Positions 16,345-56,670 of a DNA stretch of 58,700 nucleotides are shown in pieces. Origin of the DNA: a bacterium (GTDB lineage Bacteria; Bdellovibrionota_C; UBA2361; SZUA-149; JAEUWB01); the NCBI GenBank assembly GCA_016786595.1, contig JAEUWB010000039.1, forward strand, positions 1 to 58,700, in the 5' to 3' direction. A program made the translations under genes and the position numbers. How positions within the stretch are numbered: the stretch's first letter is position 1; each line of letters opens with the position of its first letter. The notes beneath the pieces were generated by a model. The model searched no databases. It saw only the letters and a program-made list of their open reading frames with translations, and was not told the origin of the DNA.

Positions 16345-16450
16345 CTTCTGATTCTGTTTTAAAGGCGCTTAACTTAAAAGTTGTGCGCATAATGTATAGT
16401 TAAGAGTGAGAAAACGGGTAAGAGGTTTTTTTAATTCAGCTTCCTTGCAT

Positions 16451-16507
16451 TGATTGGTCCTTAGAGTGATTATTTTATTTATCGATAATTATTCTTAGGG
16501 CCAATCA
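16451..16507 (+). promoter_or_regulatory. Long leader hairpin upstream of the 16520 gene
   Basis: Two 23-nt arms, 16451-16473 and 16485-16507, pair almost fully: one T/T mismatch and three G/U pairs, with an 11-nt loop. The outer part is TGATTGGTCC against GGGCCAATCA. The stem ends 12 bases before the ATG, and the GGAAG ribosome binding site follows just outside it. It is not followed by a T-run, so it looks like a 5'-UTR structure rather than a terminator. Confidence 0.7.
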
Positions 16508-16519
16508 GCCTGGAAGAAA

Positions 16520-16972
16520 ATGAAACGAGTCTTTAACGACACCGATCTCGCTGCAGTTCAGACCAGAGTTTGGGAAACCAACAAAAGTGAATTTGGCTTT
16601 ATCGGTCTGCATGACGGATGGGATCTTAGCGAAGGTGGTGGAGCCGATTTGATTCGTGAAAGTCATAATCGGATTGAAATCCTTCCTCGACATCGTCGGT
16701 TGCACAGCTGGTCAAAGATTTTGATTCTCCCCGATCCAACATGGGAAGATGAGAACAATTTTACATTCGGCTGTACCGGTTGGATCACAGGTATTAAAGG
16801 GTATGTCATTCAAATTGACAGACCTGAAGAACCAGAAATGCCTTGGATCATGGCCATCGGAAGAATTCCCTATCAGACTTGGGATGAACTTCTGGCGTGC
16901 CTACCACAGGTAATCCAACGCGTCGCTTGGGAAGATCGTGAAGGTCGGCGCCAAGCAAAAAAGACTGCTTAG
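16520..16972 (+). CDS. Hypothetical protein, 150 residues, structured leader
   Basis: Soluble protein rich in Trp and charged residues (LHDGWDLSEGGGADL, PDPTWEDENNFTFGCTGWIT, IDRPEEPEMPWIM). No signal peptide or membrane segment. No family recognised. It stands alone between rpe and plsY, with a 23-nt-arm hairpin in its 5' leader, GGAAG at a proper distance from the ATG and its own intrinsic terminator. The base composition seems higher in G+C than its neighbours. The architecture parallels the orphan gene at 45710. Confidence 0.8.
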   Translation: MKRVFNDTDLAAVQTRVWETNKSEFGFIGLHDGWDLSEGGGADLIRESHNRIEILPRHRRLHSWSKILILPDPTWEDENNFTFGCTGWITGIKGYVIQIDRPEEPEMPWIMAIGRIPYQTWDELLACLPQVIQRVAWEDREGRRQAKKTA

Positions 16973-18735: not shown

Positions 18736-18820
18736 ATCTTAGGCTTGAACTTAAACTTCGCCTTCCCCCCTTATCATGATTGTTAGGGCAAAAGGGAAAG
18801 TTTAAGTTCAAGCCTAAGAT
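18736..18820. terminator. Bidirectional terminator with 23-bp perfect arms
   Basis: Arms 18736-18758 and 18798-18820 are exact reverse complements (ATCTTAGGCTTG...CAAGCCTAAGAT), separated by a 39-nt loop. T-rich tails follow on both strands (TTTTAATTT on plus; CAAAAATAATT on minus). It sits between convergent hldD and the DHS-like gene. Confidence 0.85.
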
Positions 18821-27743: not shown

Positions 27744-30700
27744 GAATTGGGTGACCTTCAATTTCTAATTCATTCCAAGATGGTTGTAGTTGTTGAGCGC
27801 TCAGCTCTACGGCCAATGTCTCTGCCTTAATATATTCGGCGTGATCGCTTAAGCTTGCTGTAAGATCAGGAAAAGCAGTCGTATAGTTAATGCGAATTCG
27901 ATCGCTGACGTTAAAGTTACTGTCTTTTCTTACCTTCTGTACGCGATTTACAAATTCTCGCGCCAATCCTTCACGTAACAGCGCCGGACTAAGTTCCGTA
28001 TCAAGTAAGATGCTAATCTGGCCAGAAGATCCGAGTCCAGTAACTCCTGCGCGCGCCTTACGTTTAATCACTAATTCAGCTTGACCAAGCTCCACTCCAG
28101 CTAGTGCAAGTTTTCCGCCAGATTCGACACTGCGAATTTGCTCTGAAGTTAAATTCTGGCAACCACTACGTAACTCCTGCATGCCCTTTGACCCAAGTTT
28201 TGGCCCAAGTGTTTTTCCTAAAAGCACAGTGTTTAAATTCGCTGATAAATCAACATATTGAGATTCATCAGTCGAATATGAAACAGCCTTAACGTTAAGT
28301 TCTTCACGAATATAAATTTCTAGTGGTTTCAGTTCTGCAATTGCTTGAGCACTCGGGTGAATGACTAAGAGCGATTTGAGAGGTTGCCGCACCTTAATAC
28401 CAAGGTCATTACGTAAGCTTCGACCAAGTAAGATCACCTCTTCAAAAAGCGACATCCCGGACTCAAGCTTAAGGTCAATTTTACTAAGCTCAACATCAAG
28501 TGTCGGGAAACAAGCTAAGTGAACACTTTGCGCTGAATTAATCTGATTTGCCTTGGTTAGCCGTTGATAAATCTCTTCAGCAATAAATGGGGCAAGGGGT
28601 GCGAGCACCCTGACAAAGCCAGTTAACACAGTATGCAGCGTAGCATAGGCTTGAGTCTTATCCTCTTCAGTTGCCTTGCCTTCAGACCAAAAACGCCGAC
28701 GATTCAGGCGAATGTACCAGTTTGTGAGTTGATCAACAAAATCAAGAATCGGCTGCACGGCCGCGGATAAGTGATATGAGCTCAGCGCTCGATCCACACC
28801 TTGGACTAACGATGCAAACTTAGAAAGAATCCAGCGATCAAGTAAATTTTCAGAAGCAAGTTGTGGTGTCTGGGCTGGCTGCCAATTGTCTGCTGCGGCA
28901 TAGGTTGCATAGAAATTATAGGCATTCCAAAGTGGTAAAATCGTCTGGCGCACGACTTGCTTCACCCCCTGTTTACTAAAGCGCAAATCTTCGCCGCGAG
29001 TTGCTGCCGAGCTTAACAAGTAAAGTCGCATCGCGTCTGCACCAAACTCCTCCATCACTTCTTCGGGTGGCGGGTAATTTTTTAGCGACTTCGACATTTT
29101 TTTCCCGTCTTCTGCCAGAATAATGCCGTTAACAATCACATTTTTAAATGCGGGCTTATCAAATAGCGCAGTTGATAGTACTAATAGGGTGTAAAACCAC
29201 CCACGGGTTTGATCTAAACCTTCAGCAATAAAATCAGCAGGGAAATTTGCCTCAAAACGTTCACGGTTCTCAAACGGATAGTGTTCCTGACCATAGGGCA
29301 TTGAGCCGCTTTCGAACCAACAGTCGAGGACTTCAGGCACACGTTGCATCAGACCCTTTCCTGATGGCGCAGTAAAAGTAATCTCGTCTAAATGCTGGCT
29401 ATGTAGATCGTTAACTTTCTTTCCACTTAGCTTTTCTAACTCTGCAACTGAGCCAATACAGAGCATCTCTCCAGTCTCGGCACAACGCCAAATTGGTAGC
29501 GGTGTTCCCCAATAACGATTACGAGAAATTGCCCAATCCCTTGCCCCTTCAAGCCACTTACCGAAACGCCCATCCCGAATATGCTCAGGAACCCAGTGGA
29601 TTTGCGCGTTATTCTTTAAGAGTTTCTCTCTTAAGGCTTCAACTTTAACAAACCAACTGGAAATAGATTTGTAGATTAGCGGCGTGTCTGTGCGCCAGCA
29701 AAAAGGATAAGAGTGTTGGATTGTCTCATGCCGAACTAGCTTGCCTTGCTCCTTGAGTGAATGGATAATTTTTGCATCGGCTGCTTTGATATTGAGGCCG
29801 GCAAAATCTACAACAGCAGCAGTAAAATTTCCTTCCTCATCAACAGGATCGACCACAGGAATACTATTCGCAAGAAACAATTTAAGGTCATCTTCACCAA
29901 AAGATGCACAGTGAACTATTCCCGTTCCATCGCTATCTGTTACAAACTCTCCACTGTAGGTTTTAAATGCGCCTTTACTACGCACTGTTTCAAAGTAGGG
30001 GAAAAACTGTCGATAAGAAATTCCAATGACTTTGTCTCCAGTAAAACTTGCCAATATCGTGCTTTGATTTTCAGATTTTTTAAGCTCTGGAAAATAAACT
30101 TCAGCGCGATTTTCAGCGATAATCACAACTTCCTTCAGACTCTCATTTTTAACAGCGCAGTATTGGACACCCGGTCCAAAAGCAAGTGCGAGGTTACTTG
30201 GTAGCGTCCAAGGGGTGGTTGTCCAAGCGTAAGTTGTAAGACGGTAGTCTTGTGGTAAAATTTTCTGAAGAAACTCAGGTAATTCTCCAATAAATTCTGC
30301 GCGTACAGTTACAGCAGGATCTTGCACGTCTTTATAATTTAAATTCGCTTCGAAATTACTTAAGGGAGTGTTAATTGCCCAAGAGTAAGGCACGCACTTT
30401 AAGCCTTCATAGATCAAACCCTGATCCCAGAGTTTACGAAATATCGCCCAGATTGACTCCATGAAATCACGGTCCATGGTGTGATAAGGTCGTGAAAAAT
30501 CAACCCAACGACCCGAGCGTTCAATAAATGCTCGCCATTCATTGGTGTAGCGCAACACAATCTTGCGACACTCTTCATTAAATTTTCCAATGCCAAACTC
30601 TTTAATAGCTTTTGCACCATGCAGGTTGAGCATTTTTTGAATTTCAAACTCAACGGGAACACCATGGCAATCCCAGCCTAGTCTCCGGTCAACATGAAAT

Positions 30701-33744: not shown

Positions 33745-33763
33745 GTTGTGTCTGCGACACAAC
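33745..33763. repeat. Short perfect hairpin
   Basis: GTTGTGTC-TGC-GACACAAC: eight base pairs with a three-base loop, directly abutting the larger hairpin at 33764. No T-run follows. Confidence 0.6.
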
Positions 33764-33825
33764 TTATATACCAGTTTGCAAAATCGTCAGTTTTATCCAA
33801 AATCTTTTTGCAAACTGGTATATAA
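33764..33825. repeat. 20-bp perfect inverted repeat
   Basis: The arms 33764-33783 and 33806-33825 (TTATATACCAGTTTGCAAAA and its exact complement) are separated by 22 nt. It may end transcripts of the upstream gene or be part of a repeat element. It is strikingly long and exact for this window. Confidence 0.65.
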
Positions 33826-33837
33826 TAACTCTCTGAG

Positions 33838-43790: not shown

Positions 43791-43795
43791 GTCTC

Positions 43796-45481
43796 ATGAA
43801 TTATTACAAGTTGCCGTACCTAATCTTTACGCTTGCCAGTATTGCGATCGGCTTTTTTTTCGCACATAAAATTTCAAATAGCAGCGCAAGCCGTCACCAA
43901 AAATCTCCACAAATAATCGGTAACGATTTGTTCTTATTAATTTTTGCAATTCTTGGCGGCACTTTGCTACGTATTTACGGTGTTGATTTTGGACTACCAC
44001 GTGCTTATCACCCAGACGAACTGCAGAAAGCTACACTGCTAAGTAAAATGGTAAAAAACCAAACAATTGACCCCAATTACGCAGCACTCCCCCCACTACT
44101 GCTTTATCTTAGTTGGTTTGTTGCCCAACCACTTGAATGGTTGAACTACCCCGAGGGAAATTCAGTTGTCCGCTACCTACTCTCAGGTCGAATCGTGAAT
44201 GTAATTACCGGCTCACTCTCAATCTATCTTATTTATTGCATCGGTAGACGCCTCTCTTCTAGTTTCACTGGAGTCTTAGCTGCCTTATTTTTAGCTTTTT
44301 CGCCGCTACATGTAACCAATAGTCGTTACATGAAAGAAGATGCGCTCTTTGTGTTTTTTACACTGGCCTGCGTGCTTGCGGTATTAAAGGCGATTCAAGC
44401 GGGGAAATTAAGGTACTTATATTTTGCTGGCTTTCTTGCCGGAGTTTCTTTTGGGGCAAAATATACTGGTCTTGTTACGATTGCCTGCGTGCTTGCAGTG
44501 CCCTGGTTAAAATCAGAACGTTTAACATTTAAGCCTGATTTAACTCTCCTCAAGCATTCGCTTGCTGCCACACTCTTGATGCCTGTCGGCTTTTTGGCAA
44601 CCATGCCTTACGTATTTTTGTCGTTAGACCGTTTTACTTTTCTTTATTACGGCATTCGCACCGAGTCTTTGCATGCCATGCGTGGGCACCTTGGATTAGT
44701 GATTGACGCTTGGTCTCAGTTTTGGATGTATCATCTCTCAACTGGCTTAATTCCAGGAGTGTCTTTATTAGTCTTAACTTTTGCACTTTTACAAACTGGT
44801 ATCACGCTTAGAGATTTAGAAACAAAATTCCTACTGATCGTTGGCGGAATGCTGATTTTTTATATCCCTCCCGAGTGGGCAGTCTCGAAGCCACCACCAC
44901 AGCCTGACCGTTATGTCTTAGCATGTGTACCATTTATTGCCTTACTTGCCGCTGAATTTATTCGGCGGTTAAATCTTGAAATCTTTAATTTCAAGCTGAT
45001 CTCAGCAAATCAAGAAAAGTTTAGAACGGGACTGCTCTCACTTACTTTGCTTTTTCCACTTTTAAGCACCTTGAAATACACTTCAGAAATTTATAATGAC
45101 ACGCGCAAGCAAGCAAGTAACTGGCTTGCCGGAAATATGCCTCCACAAACGAAAGTTATTGTTGCAGGGGGGACTGTTTATCTGCCACCTATTCCTAGCA
45201 ACATCATCGATGTGACAATCAGGGATTTTGCGAAGGCAACTAAACGTGATCGAAAGCCGATGATTGAAAAGTTAAAATCCTCTGAGTATCAATATTTAAT
45301 TGTCTCTGATTTCGATGCTAAACGTTTCGATCCTTATAAACCGAAGCGCAAGAGCCGTTTTGCTATTGGACTGCGCGCAGAGGTTGATAAAACTTTTCGC
45401 ATCGTGAAGCAATTTCGCTCGAAATACGGAAGCTACGGATTTCATCATCCAGTAGTCACAATCTACCAGCTAAAAAGCTAA
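43796..45481 (+). CDS. GT39/PMT-family membrane glycosyltransferase
   Basis: 561 residues with about eleven membrane helices. The first loop holds YHPDELQKATLL, matching the conserved Asp-Glu of GT-C enzymes that use polyprenyl-phosphate sugars. The C-terminal 140 residues are soluble (NMPPQTKVIVAGGTV). It starts 5 bp after the metG stop. Likely adds a sugar to lipid A, lipid-linked saccharide or protein; the substrate is unknown. Confidence 0.8.
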   Translation: MNYYKLPYLIFTLASIAIGFFFAHKISNSSASRHQKSPQIIGNDLFLLIFAILGGTLLRIYGVDFGLPRAYHPDELQKATLLSKMVKNQTIDPNYAALPPLLLYLSWFVAQPLEWLNYPEGNSVVRYLLSGRIVNVITGSLSIYLIYCIGRRLSSSFTGVLAALFLAFSPLHVTNSRYMKEDALFVFFTLACVLAVLKAIQAGKLRYLYFAGFLAGVSFGAKYTGLVTIACVLAVPWLKSERLTFKPDLTLLKHSLAATLLMPVGFLATMPYVFLSLDRFTFLYYGIRTESLHAMRGHLGLVIDAWSQFWMYHLSTGLIPGVSLLVLTFALLQTGITLRDLETKFLLIVGGMLIFYIPPEWAVSKPPPQPDRYVLACVPFIALLAAEFIRRLNLEIFNFKLISANQEKFRTGLLSLTLLFPLLSTLKYTSEIYNDTRKQASNWLAGNMPPQTKVIVAGGTVYLPPIPSNIIDVTIRDFAKATKRDRKPMIEKLKSSEYQYLIVSDFDAKRFDPYKPKRKSRFAIGLRAEVDKTFRIVKQFRSKYGSYGFHHPVVTIYQLKS

Positions 45482-45519
45482 AGTGATTTGAATTTTCCTT
45501 CGCACGCGCAAAATAAACT

Positions 45520-45541
45520 TTAAGGCCCTTTCTGGCCTTAA
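45520..45541 (+). terminator. Hairpin after the membrane glycosyltransferase gene
   Basis: TTAAGGCC-CTTTCT-GGCCTTAA: eight perfect pairs, six-base loop, 40 bases past the stop. No T-run follows, so termination may be weak or depend on other factors. Confidence 0.5.
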
Positions 45542-45559
45542 GCAGAAACTCCCAGGAAT

Positions 45560-45588
45560 TTGATTATTTTTCTCTTCAGGCGTATATT
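45560..45588 (+). promoter_or_regulatory. Probable sigma70-type promoter for the 45710 gene
   Basis: TTGATT (45560-45565), a 17-bp spacer, and TATATT (45583-45588) closely fit the -35/-10 consensus. A start around 45595 would give a leader of roughly 115 nt that includes the whole stem structure at 45623-45703. Confidence 0.6.
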
Positions 45589-45622
45589 TTCCCGCTGAGT
45601 AGAAGACTACGCAACACGAATT

Positions 45623-45703
45623 GTCCTTGAGTCCCTTAATTTAGATCGAGTCTTTGCTAGAGCAAAAATGTTTTAGCAAAGACTCTAGTAAAGGGTCGAG
45701 GAC
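45623..45703 (+). promoter_or_regulatory. Structured mRNA leader masking the ribosome binding site
   Basis: Three nested helices: GTCCT (45623-45627) with AGGAC (45699-45703); CCCTT (45633-45637) with AAGGG (45691-45695); GAGTCTTTGCTA (45648-45659) with TAGCAAAGACTC (45674-45685), which is perfect over 12 bp with a 14-nt loop. The outer helix covers the GAGGA Shine-Dalgarno sequence that sits 7 bases before the ATG. This is the pattern of a translation-controlling RNA element. No known riboswitch class was recognised. Confidence 0.7.
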
Positions 45704-45709
45704 AAGAAA

Positions 45710-46276
45710 ATGCAGGTTATTATCAACACGACATCAATCCCAGGGAATGTTTCGGACCTCCCTGATCAAGTCACAGTGCTTGGCCGATCCCCTGAGGGCG
45801 GAGGGAATCAAATCCTTTCCACAAGCGCAGGCGGTCCATTGGCGGGACTTCTCTTCAAGTCGGAGGCAGAAGCTGTGCAATATGCCGGATCAAGGCCGTC
45901 ATTGGCCGATCGAACTGGCCTCCTCGAGACATGGCAACTCTGGACTATCTCTCAAGGTGAAGCTTTTGAGATCATGCGCGCCCAAGGGCGAAGTCACGCA
46001 GCCCTTTGGAGTGCTGAGATCAAAGACACTGCTGCTAAGCCAGTCAAGGCAGCAAAGCCCGTAAAGGTCAAAAAGCCACGCCGTAATTTCAAGCAGTGGT
46101 GGGCAGATCTCAAGGACGGGAAAAAGAAAGGTCCGGAACTTGTTGGTAACTCGGAGCCTACATCTGAGCCTAGCGCAGCAAGTGCGTCAGCCAACAACCC
46201 AGAAACAGCGATCGCAACGCGCGAAGTCAATGAGACTTTGACGCTGATTCCACTTCCCGTACAGGTTACGGCATGA
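45710..46276 (+). CDS. Hypothetical protein, 188 residues, structured leader
   Basis: N-terminal part (about 1-105) looks like a folded domain (MQVIINTTSIPGNVSDLPDQ, LLETWQLWTISQGEAFEIM). Then comes a Lys/Ala/Pro repeat (KPVKAAKPVKVKKPRR), a short WWADLKDGKKK patch and a disordered Ser/Ala tail. No signal peptide, no family recognised. Composition appears richer in G+C than the neighbours. It is a single gene with its own promoter, leader and terminator. Overlapping frames on both strands look spurious. Confidence 0.8.
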   Translation: MQVIINTTSIPGNVSDLPDQVTVLGRSPEGGGNQILSTSAGGPLAGLLFKSEAEAVQYAGSRPSLADRTGLLETWQLWTISQGEAFEIMRAQGRSHAALWSAEIKDTAAKPVKAAKPVKVKKPRRNFKQWWADLKDGKKKGPELVGNSEPTSEPSAASASANNPETAIATREVNETLTLIPLPVQVTA

Positions 46277-46281
46277 AACGC

Positions 46282-46330
46282 CTTAGGGCTTGGAAAGATT
46301 AATCTCTCCAAGCCCTAAGCAAATTTTTTA
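46282..46330 (+). terminator. Strong intrinsic terminator after the 45710 gene
   Basis: CTTAGGGCTTGGA (46282-46294) and TCCAAGCCCTAAG (46307-46319) form 13 perfect pairs with a 12-nt loop, followed by CAAATTTTTTATT. Confidence 0.93.
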
Positions 46331-46361
46331 TTAACGTTTTAGAATGTGTAGTCTTTCTCTC

Positions 46362-46727
46362 TTATTTTAGTGCAAATCCTAGAGAAATCCAGGCCGTAAT
46401 CAAGAGAATGCCTCCAATTGGCGTAATTGCTCCAAGCCAGGGAGTATTTGTCAAAACTAAAATGTAAAGTGATCCTGAAAAAATTAGCACCCCGAGCAAA
46501 AGTAATAAATATATTCTTTCACCAGACTGAAGATCAATAAATTCATTCTTTACGAGTAACGGTATAAACAGTAACCCTAAACTGTGAATAAACTGATAAA
46601 ACACAGCTTTTTCATAGACAGCTAAGCGATCAGCTATAACCATTCCACGTAGCGCATGAGCTCCAAATGCCCCCGCGCCAACAGCTAATGCCAAAAGAAG
46701 TGCTGAAATTTTCAGTTGTGATTTCAT
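46362..46727 (-). CDS. DUF423 family small membrane protein
   Basis: About 121 residues with four hydrophobic helices. Family pattern GAFGAHALR near the N-terminus, YQFIHSLGLL, and the end GAITPIGGILLITAWISL. Inner-membrane protein of unknown function (YgdD-like). Start MKSQLK at 46727; a longer frame begins at 46742. Confidence 0.87.
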   Translation of the reverse strand: MKSQLKISALLLALAVGAGAFGAHALRGMVIADRLAVYEKAVFYQFIHSLGLLFIPLLVKNEFIDLQSGERIYLLLLLGVLIFSGSLYILVLTNTPWLGAITPIGGILLITAWISLGFALK

Positions 46728-46909
46728 AAAAATAACTGCCAATAGCTGAGATCAATCCATTTTTTGAACTTACACCCGACTTGCTCGAAGTGGGCAACCT
46801 TGCGATAGCCAAGGCGCTTGTGCAGTATAACACTTGCTTCGTTCGGAAAAGCAATTCCAGCAACCTGGATTGCATCTTCAAGTGGCGCTACGCGAATTAA
46901 TATATCCAT
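46724..46909 (-). pseudogene. GNAT acetyltransferase fragment (C-terminal part only)
   Basis: 61 codons. IAFPNEASVILHKRLGYRKV then HFEQVGCKFKKWIDLSYWQL match the C-terminal end of phosphinothricin-type N-acetyltransferases. The acetyl-CoA-binding core is missing, and a stop lies a few codons upstream. It is a truncated remnant between coaX and the DUF423 gene. Confidence 0.65.
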
Positions 46910-47046
46910 CAGGCTTAAAAAAAGATATTGATACTAAACTATTAGACTCAAAAATTACTAGCTCCACGCCGAGATTGATTCTCTCAGCTCATTACGCTAT
47001 AGAATCAAGCCAAATTGACCTGATCTCCAGCAAGAAGGGTACAAAC

Positions 47047-47871
47047 ATGATAAGTAAATCCCCCCAATCGCAATCCCAGACAAACTATAGCCTTTGCCTC
47101 GACGTAGGAAATACCAATCTCTATGGTGGGGTTTTTGCAGGCGAGGAGTTAATTACTTCCTTTCGCCGCGACACGACAACTGGCTCTGCAGCAGATGAAT
47201 TCGGAGTATTTTTCCGCACAGTTTTACGAGAAAATGGCATCGATCCAAGTCTGGTGACAAAAGTTGGAATTTCTTCGGTTGTCCCTTCGCAAGTGCACTC
47301 GCTACGTGGAGCAGCAGTTAAATATTTTAACTGTGAACCCTTTATACTCAGAGCTGGAGTTAAGACCGGACTAAAAATTTTAATGAAAAATCCACCTGAT
47401 GTTGGGGCAGATCGCATTGCCAATTCCATTTCTGCTGTCAAGCGTTACCCCCAACAAAATATCATTATTGTTGATTTCGGAACTGCAACTACCTACTGCG
47501 CAATTTCAAAAAATGCAGAATATCTCGGTGGAGCAATTATTCCTGGCATAAAAATTTCCATGGAAAGCCTTGAATCAAGAACTGCACGACTGCCGCGCGT
47601 TGAGATTGTAAAACCAGAAAATGCGCTCGGACGTTCAACTGTCGAATCAATTCAAGCTGGACTTTACTATTCGGCAGTTGGTTGCACCCGTGAAATTTGC
47701 CAAAATCTGATTCGAGAAACATTTAAAAATGAAAAAACAATTATTATCGGCACAGGCGGATTCTCACGCATGTTTGAGGATGCGGGACTTTTTGACACAA
47801 TTTTAGCAGATTTAGTGCTCGATGGCGTGAGAATCGCCATGGAATTAAATACTCAGAGCTTCGGTAACTAA
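47047..47871 (+). CDS. coaX: Type III pantothenate kinase
   Basis: First step of CoA synthesis from pantothenate. 274 residues with the ASKHA phosphate motif LCLDVGNTNLYGGV. The substrate region NPPDVGADRIAN, then IIIVDFGTATTYCAI and YLGGAIIPGIKISMESL, all fit CoaX. The ATG at 47047 gives a normal length. The next gene, an archaeal-type phosphopantothenate synthetase, begins one base after its stop, so they are certainly one unit. Confidence 0.95.
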   Translation: MISKSPQSQSQTNYSLCLDVGNTNLYGGVFAGEELITSFRRDTTTGSAADEFGVFFRTVLRENGIDPSLVTKVGISSVVPSQVHSLRGAAVKYFNCEPFILRAGVKTGLKILMKNPPDVGADRIANSISAVKRYPQQNIIIVDFGTATTYCAISKNAEYLGGAIIPGIKISMESLESRTARLPRVEIVKPENALGRSTVESIQAGLYYSAVGCTREICQNLIRETFKNEKTIIIGTGGFSRMFEDAGLFDTILADLVLDGVRIAMELNTQSFGN

Positions 47872-47872
47872 T

Positions 47873-48628
47873 ATGTCTAGCAGCGATATCCCGAGCAATC
47901 ATCCACGCGCACTTTCACTAGCTCTACGTAAACGCATCGAGGACCACGTTGAAACTGGCTTGGTTGCTAAAGCTGGACCGATTGCGCATGGCCGTGGAGA
48001 AGCTTTTGATTATCTGATTGGAGAGCAAACTCTACCCTGCGTCTTAAACGACATCGAAACTGCCGCAGCCCTGCTACTTAAGGCAAAGCATCCAGTAATT
48101 AGTGTCAACGGCAATGCTGCCGTGTTGGTTCCAACGGAGCTTGTTGCTTTAGCAGCAGCGATTCCCGCGAAACTTGAAGTTAACGTTTTTTACGGGCGCA
48201 CGTTTGAAAGAGAGAAAATGTTGGCTGCGCATTTAATGCAACACGGCGCCAAAGAAGTACTTGGCATTCACACCGAAGCTAAGGTACCCAATCTTCATTC
48301 TGCCCGCCAGCATGTTGACATCAACGGGATCGCTCAAGCTGATGTTGTGCTTGTTCCACTTGAAGATGGTGACCGCACTAAGGCGCTCATTGATTGGGGT
48401 AAAAAAGTTATCTCAATTGATTTAAATCCTTTTTCCCGCACTGCTCGTGATTCGACAATAAATATTTGCGATAATATCGTGCGCTGCGTGCCCGAACTAA
48501 CCAAGGCGATTCAACTGCTAAAAGCAGACTCTGCCAAGGCGGAAAAGCTCATTGCTGGTTACGATAAAACTCAATCGACAAAAAATATTATCCAGGCAAT
48601 CCAAGTTAGATTAAACTTCTTTCAATAA
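47873..48628 (+). CDS. Archaeal-type phosphopantothenate synthetase (4-phosphopantoate--beta-alanine ligase)
   Basis: 251 residues that closely follow the archaeal COG1701/PF02006 family, as I recall it. Blocks are IPSNHPRALSLALRKRIEDH, GLVAKAGPIAHGRGEAFDYL, AKHPVISVNGNAAVLVP, KLEVNVFYGR, ADVVLVPLEDGDRTKAL and IDLNPFSRTARDSTINICDN. In archaea it joins 4-phosphopantoate and beta-alanine to give phosphopantothenate, replacing bacterial PanC and working after pantoate kinase. Finding it in a bacterial operon with CoaX is unusual. Assignment rests on motif memory, not a search. Confidence 0.85.
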   Translation: MSSSDIPSNHPRALSLALRKRIEDHVETGLVAKAGPIAHGRGEAFDYLIGEQTLPCVLNDIETAAALLLKAKHPVISVNGNAAVLVPTELVALAAAIPAKLEVNVFYGRTFEREKMLAAHLMQHGAKEVLGIHTEAKVPNLHSARQHVDINGIAQADVVLVPLEDGDRTKALIDWGKKVISIDLNPFSRTARDSTINICDNIVRCVPELTKAIQLLKADSAKAEKLIAGYDKTQSTKNIIQAIQVRLNFFQ

Positions 48629-48767
48629 AAGGTTGAAAAAATTTTCCTTATTTCTCGATCATATCAAGATTTTAAGCTGTTGCTAAAATCCTAATTCGAA
48701 AGAAGTCTATTAGAAAAATTTATTGATTCTTAACTTTTCTTCCCAATTAAGATCTATCGAGTCAAGA

Positions 48768-49193
48768 TCATGCTGATCTGGTTTTTAACTCCCTGATCAA
48801 CTGCTGCTTAAATGGATGTTGCTTCGTTTCAAATTCACTTAGAGCAGAAAAATGAAGTTTTTTATACTTCACCAAGCGCGCAACAATACCACGTTCACTA
48901 CGCGAAAATTTGACTGCCAAGTCAGCAATACTTTGACCTGCGCTGAAGTCAGCTAAAAGCATTTCATCGTCCTCTCGACTCCAAGCCTTGCCCAGATTTG
49001 AAGGAAAAATCTTGCGACGGACTTCTTCCTGATTTTTTTTCTCCAAAGCACTTGCCGCATGCATTAAGGCCCGAACAACGCTCGGGTCATGGCAAGGATT
49101 ACTCTTGGGTAATGGAGCTTGAGTTTTAGGTTCAAGCCCTTGAGCTAGTACGCGAATAATATTGAGCGCCTCTTTAAGTTCACTCTCTGACAT
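48768..49193 (-). CDS. Myb/SANT-like HTH protein
   Basis: 141 residues. A helix-turn-helix unit lies in the second half: AWSREDDEMLLADFSAGQSI and LAVKFSRSERGIVARLVKYK, a pattern found in small bacterial DNA-binding modules that tell 'W-x-x-E-[DE]' from 'G-x-S-[IV]'. The N-terminal helix region is charged. No other domain. DNA binding is inferred and the target is unknown. Confidence 0.68.
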   Translation of the reverse strand: MSESELKEALNIIRVLAQGLEPKTQAPLPKSNPCHDPSVVRALMHAASALEKKNQEEVRRKIFPSNLGKAWSREDDEMLLADFSAGQSIADLAVKFSRSERGIVARLVKYKKLHFSALSEFETKQHPFKQQLIRELKTRSA

Positions 49194-49259
49194 AAATCTC
49201 CTAACTAATTGATAATTAATACAGTAATGATCTAAAATCTTTGATCTTTTTTGGGGGAA

Positions 49260-49309
49260 TAACCTGAGTCCGGGATAAGATTTCGTTAGCTTATCCCGAA
49301 CCCAGGTTA
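49260..49309. repeat. 20-nt-arm hairpin upstream of tatD
   Basis: Arms 49260-49279 and 49290-49309 pair at 18 of 20 positions (AACCTG...CGGGATAAG with CTTATCCCG...CAGGTT), ten-base loop. No T-run follows. It lies in the 240-bp gap between the HTH gene and tatD, which point away from each other. Confidence 0.6.
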
Positions 49310-49433
49310 CTAGGTCTATTTTAAGAATTGACCCTCTACTGTATATATCGTCCGTTTTGAGATGTTTGTTGCGTATGGCAACGCATTTTTACAAGCTCAG
49401 CTTTAAAAGCACAGTTACAATAGCAATCATACC

Positions 49434-56599: not shown

Positions 56600-56670
56600 A
56601 TGAGTTCTAAAACATGTTTCTAACCCGTTTTATTCAATGTTGCAAAATTTAATGGGAATTCAAATAATTA

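Follow-up and report, generated by a model that had tools for sequence, protein, structure and literature searches.

The window, the whole stretch of 58,700 nucleotides analysed here, carries on its plus strand an orphan gene (45710-46276) encoding a polar product of 188 amino acids. The gene is separated by a 228-nt gap from a mannosyltransferase-like gene on the same strand (43796-45481) and is followed by a DUF423 gene on the minus strand (46362-46742). Its reading frame is coding-like, with codon usage that scores positive here and below zero in each of the five alternative frames, and its GC content of 53.6% is the fifth highest of 490 genes (mean about 44%; genome 43%). No homologues of the protein were found in Pfam, NCBIfam, PHROGs, PDB sequence, genome_contigs, viral_contigs, phages, plasmids or the genomes of the order and class, in agreement with the preliminary description, in which the product was called unrecognised from the nucleotide sequence. 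Two weak matches in class genomes were rejected because they contain stop codons, and the AlphaFold model of the product (pLDDT 42.5) is too poor for use. In four relatives from the same order holB, metG and tatD lie side by side, whereas in the present genome a segment of 5.6 kb (43791-49433) containing the mannosyltransferase, orphan, DUF423, CoaX and other genes parts metG from tatD. This segment is a lineage-specific insertion or rearrangement. Since it is absent between metG and tatD in the four relatives, the leader of the orphan gene sits in lineage-specific DNA, a setting that may explain the missing homologues. Among the named metG relatives in the public genome collection, the nearest share only about 53% identity, and the organism is therefore deep-branching.

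The leader (45595-45709, about 115 nt) lies directly 5' of the ATG at 45710, and its hairpin part spans 45621-45705. The features of the transcription unit are as follows.

45560-45588, plus strand: promoter-like site TTGATT-17-TATATT (9 of 12 matches), with an implied start near 45594-45598
45599-45610, plus strand: small 5' hairpin GUAG with a 4-bp stem (predicted fold)
45611-45620, plus strand: mostly unpaired stretch GCAACACGAA (predicted fold), a candidate ribosome standby site
45621-45630, plus strand: 5' arm of the outer helix, the anti-Shine-Dalgarno arm, UUGUCCUUGA (predicted fold)
45633-45637, plus strand: 5' arm of the middle helix, CCCUU (predicted fold)
45648-45685, plus strand: inner 17-bp hairpin with loop AAAA (predicted fold)
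45691-45695, plus strand: 3' arm of the middle helix, AAGGG (predicted fold)
45696-45705, plus strand: 3' arm of the outer helix, UCGAGGACAA, with the Shine-Dalgarno sequence (SD) within it (predicted fold)
45698-45702, plus strand: SD GAGGA, 7 nt before the ATG and whole in the outer helix (predicted fold; SD-like 4-mer counts)
45710-46276, plus strand: orphan gene, 188 amino acids, polar product (open frame, codon usage)
46282-46319, plus strand: hairpin with 19-nt arms just past the stop codon and a T-run 4 nt further, the likely transcript end

The preliminary description credited the leader with a well-placed promoter, which overstates the case: two promoter-like sites were found in the scan against 1.8 expected from shuffled sequences, TTGATT-17-TATATT is thus no better than chance, and the transcription start is consequently a guess. 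By calculation, a start at or before about 45620 keeps the SD buried and a start at or after 45630 frees it. The hairpin at 46282-46319 was not called a canonical terminator in the promoter and terminator scan. On the minus strand a terminator-like hairpin with a T tail is present at 45520-45541, where no minus-strand gene ends; it could end an antisense RNA running across the orphan gene and leader. The count of such sites is not above chance, and the scan gave no promoter-like site in antisense orientation to the leader or the orphan gene.

The nested helices proposed earlier upstream of the ATG are borne out by the predicted fold. The minimum free energy (MFE) of 45600-45730 is -46.7 kcal/mol compared with -22.6 +/- 3.4 kcal/mol for shuffled sequences (z = -7.2), and none of 200 shuffles is as low; these and all other energies for the leader are predictions. 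The outer helix (45621-45630 with 45696-45705) consists of 10 bp including one U-G, and, as had been claimed, GAGGA falls wholly within its 3' arm. The middle helix (45633-45637 with 45691-45695) has 5 bp and is joined through a weak 3-bp step (45639-45641 with 45687-45689) to the inner helix, the arms of which (45648-45664 and 45669-45685) form 17 bp with two G-U pairs. Three nucleotides of the mostly unpaired stretch pair weakly with the AUG region in the MFE structure. A two-codon frame, AUG UUU UAG (45668-45676, plus strand), has its start at the loop that caps the inner hairpin and is probably a chance occurrence.

An SD-like 4-mer is present upstream of 64 of 245 ATG starts, compared with 10 of 245 at a control position. 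For the leader alone, opening of the SD is calculated to cost 12-14 kcal/mol (12.4 and 13.97 in two computations), and the predicted fraction of molecules with an open SD at 37 C is about 2e-9. When 30-170 nt of coding sequence (to 45760-45900) are added, the cost falls to 9-11 kcal/mol, since the early coding sequence offers the 5' arm, once released, another pairing partner. Across this range of 9-14 kcal/mol the SD helix is, by calculation, too stable for direct ribosome binding. Deletion of 45621-45630 in silico lowers the cost from 12.4 to 1.4 kcal/mol. In MFE snapshots of the growing transcript the SD is paired once it has emerged and no lasting open intermediate is seen, and alternative folds with an open SD lie 7-15 kcal/mol above the MFE. 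SD burial to this depth is seen in one of 1000 shuffled leaders, so that burial alone could arise by chance across the genes of a whole genome; the outstanding feature of the leader is SD burial combined with overall stability.

Comparison with a 691-kb sample of the same genome, for which a home-made gene call was used, places the leader second of 501 gene starts in structure (z = -7.98), behind a TTAGGC-type hairpin found repeatedly in the genome, and second of 330 in SD-opening cost (13.97 kcal/mol; median 3.4). Helices of at least 12 pairs cover the region from -120 to 0 evenly in this genome, at about 25%, and are not enriched at SDs. Among SD-overlapping inverted repeats there is no excess of G-U over A-C mismatches (8 versus 9), and hence no clear G-U bias as a class. 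A genome-wide system of locked SDs is unsupported, given the flat coverage by long helices and the mismatch counts.

We favour, with moderate confidence, a reading of the leader as a cis-acting, translation-repressing 5' UTR that would be off by default, with initiation helped by ribosome standby or by a factor acting in trans. The 3' arm, once made, would pair with the 5' arm, and the SD would be closed in an unbroken helix of 10 bp that stacks on another two. This closed state would be expected from the computed structure to hold the gene near zero translation; since the 5' arm locks the SD and the snapshots leave little kinetic window, repression would be the natural reading. Relief would most likely come from a 30S subunit that binds 45611-45620 beside the small 5' hairpin and works into the helix; alternatively, an RNA or a protein might take the arm at 45621-45637. 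The relief step is conjecture, for which standby in tisB may serve as the best precedent. The weak promoter, the lack of homologues and hence of covariation, and the even spread of strong helices in this genome weigh against the reading as a whole. If this reading is right, the leader could be assigned to the SD-sequestering leaders, with no closer filing, and the type of control is already known. It would then represent a naturally occurring extreme of SD burial (about 12-14 kcal/mol for the leader) from an uncultured, deep-branching lineage, and would offer a clean two-arm construct for studying how ribosomes pass initiation sites that are closed. If the reading is wrong, the hairpin simply joins the other leader hairpins without a class.

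Structured standby sites provide a precedent for ribosome binding upstream of a closed site (PMC3936740). In tisB, a 5' structure and a single-stranded region about 100 nt upstream of the sequestered ribosome-binding site (RBS) support S1-dependent standby (PMC7708055). The leader resembles the +42 mRNA of tisB, a type I toxin of Escherichia coli, in its sequestered RBS, its small 5' structure and a single-stranded region some 80-100 nt upstream, a likeness of layout alone, with no evident sequence relation or pseudoknot. Unlike in tisB, the single-stranded part is only about 10 nt long, and this shortness, together with its partial pairing in the MFE structure, speaks against standby. The product also differs: type I toxins are short hydrophobic peptides with an RNA antitoxin, whereas the orphan gene encodes a 188-residue polar protein rather than a small membrane toxin, and no antitoxin RNA was found.

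A different function, which we regard as unlikely though deserving of weight, would be chiefly to shield the mRNA at its 5' end, or to provide a site for RNase III or for processing of the transcript, the cover over the SD being incidental. Long hairpins are common in the intergenic DNA of this genome, with coverage that stays flat up to the start codon, and a near-continuous duplex of 15 + 17 bp, as found here, is a plausible RNase III substrate. However, protection alone would not require the SD to be part of the hairpin, and the burial of this SD is extreme (second of 330).

That the binding of a metabolite or protein flips the leader between SD-closed and SD-open states is quite improbable. 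The leader is of a size fitting for a regulator, competition for the inner helix could come from a second GAGUC (45629-45633), and the pairing of the 5' arm with early coding sequence, which brings the opening cost to 9-11 kcal/mol, offers a further alternative. Like translational riboswitches and protein-binding leaders, this leader is about 115 nt long, precedes one gene and holds the SD in its closing helix; unlike them, it shows no multi-way junction, no conserved aptamer and no alternative fold of similar energy, the SD-open forms being those 7-15 kcal/mol above the MFE. The earlier observation that no known riboswitch fits stands, as no Rfam covariance model matched the leader at its gathering score (best sub-threshold match STnc400, 23.4 bits versus 80 needed).

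We give little credence to a palindrome acting at the DNA level, or a mobile-element remnant, that plays no part as RNA. The gene lies in the metG-tatD segment that is absent from the four relatives, its GC content is foreign-like and the genome carries palindromic repeats. In opposition to this, searches of the organism's own genome (96.8% complete) by BLAST and a single-sequence covariance model recovered only the leader itself, which is thus single-copy and differs from dispersed palindromic repeats of the REP or MITE type with their several copies. The three non-Watson-Crick pairs of the main helices (U45628-G45698, G45660-U45673 and G45662-U45671) are each of the G-U type when read on the mRNA strand, which also folds better than its reverse complement (-47.6 versus -38.5 kcal/mol); this wobble placement and strand difference would mildly favour an RNA role over a DNA palindrome. 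No match to the covariance model was found in 45 class relatives, and viral contigs contained no copy of the arm pattern. On contig C17, a 19-nt match with 89% identity could supply a strand that pairs with the 5' arm; it was rejected, as it falls within a called gene, in the wrong orientation to be expressed, and would be expected by chance.

It is very improbable that the leader represents a new, lineage-specific class in which orphan genes have their SDs locked until a dedicated factor in the cell opens them. Consistent with such a class, the window contains another nested leader (16440-16515, plus strand; z = -5.1) in front of an orphan gene at 16520-16972; it is similar in length and in its nested build and has its SD (GGAAG) in the outermost helix. 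No relation was detected between the two leaders in sequence or between the proteins of 16520-16972 and 45710-46276, and the former has no class relatives.

An RNA thermometer, also proposed in the preliminary description, is barely credible: as in ROSE and fourU, the SD sits in a hairpin immediately 5' of the start codon, but here its helix is uninterrupted by the mismatches or bulges that weaken such elements and too stable for physiological melting, with a predicted open fraction that rises from 5e-11 at 20 C to only 5e-8 at 50 C and closure predicted far beyond that temperature, the product is not heat-shock-like, and a ROSE variant with a perfectly paired SD no longer melts (PMC3669281).

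Several other hairpins were observed in the genome. On the minus strand of contig C45, perfect or near-perfect hairpins of 17-19 bp cover the SDs of two other unrecognised genes, which start at 56640 and near 29904; one of the hairpins also covers the ATG. A hairpin at 18736-18820 of the window with TTAGGCTTGAACTT arms has similar elements at C60:135228-135286 and near C28:31024 and represents a second repeated hairpin family. The first is a palindromic repeat, TTATATACCAGTTTGCAAAA...TTTTGCAAACTGGTATATAA at 33760-33830, which has 10 copies in the genome with 85-100% identity and is REP- or MITE-like.
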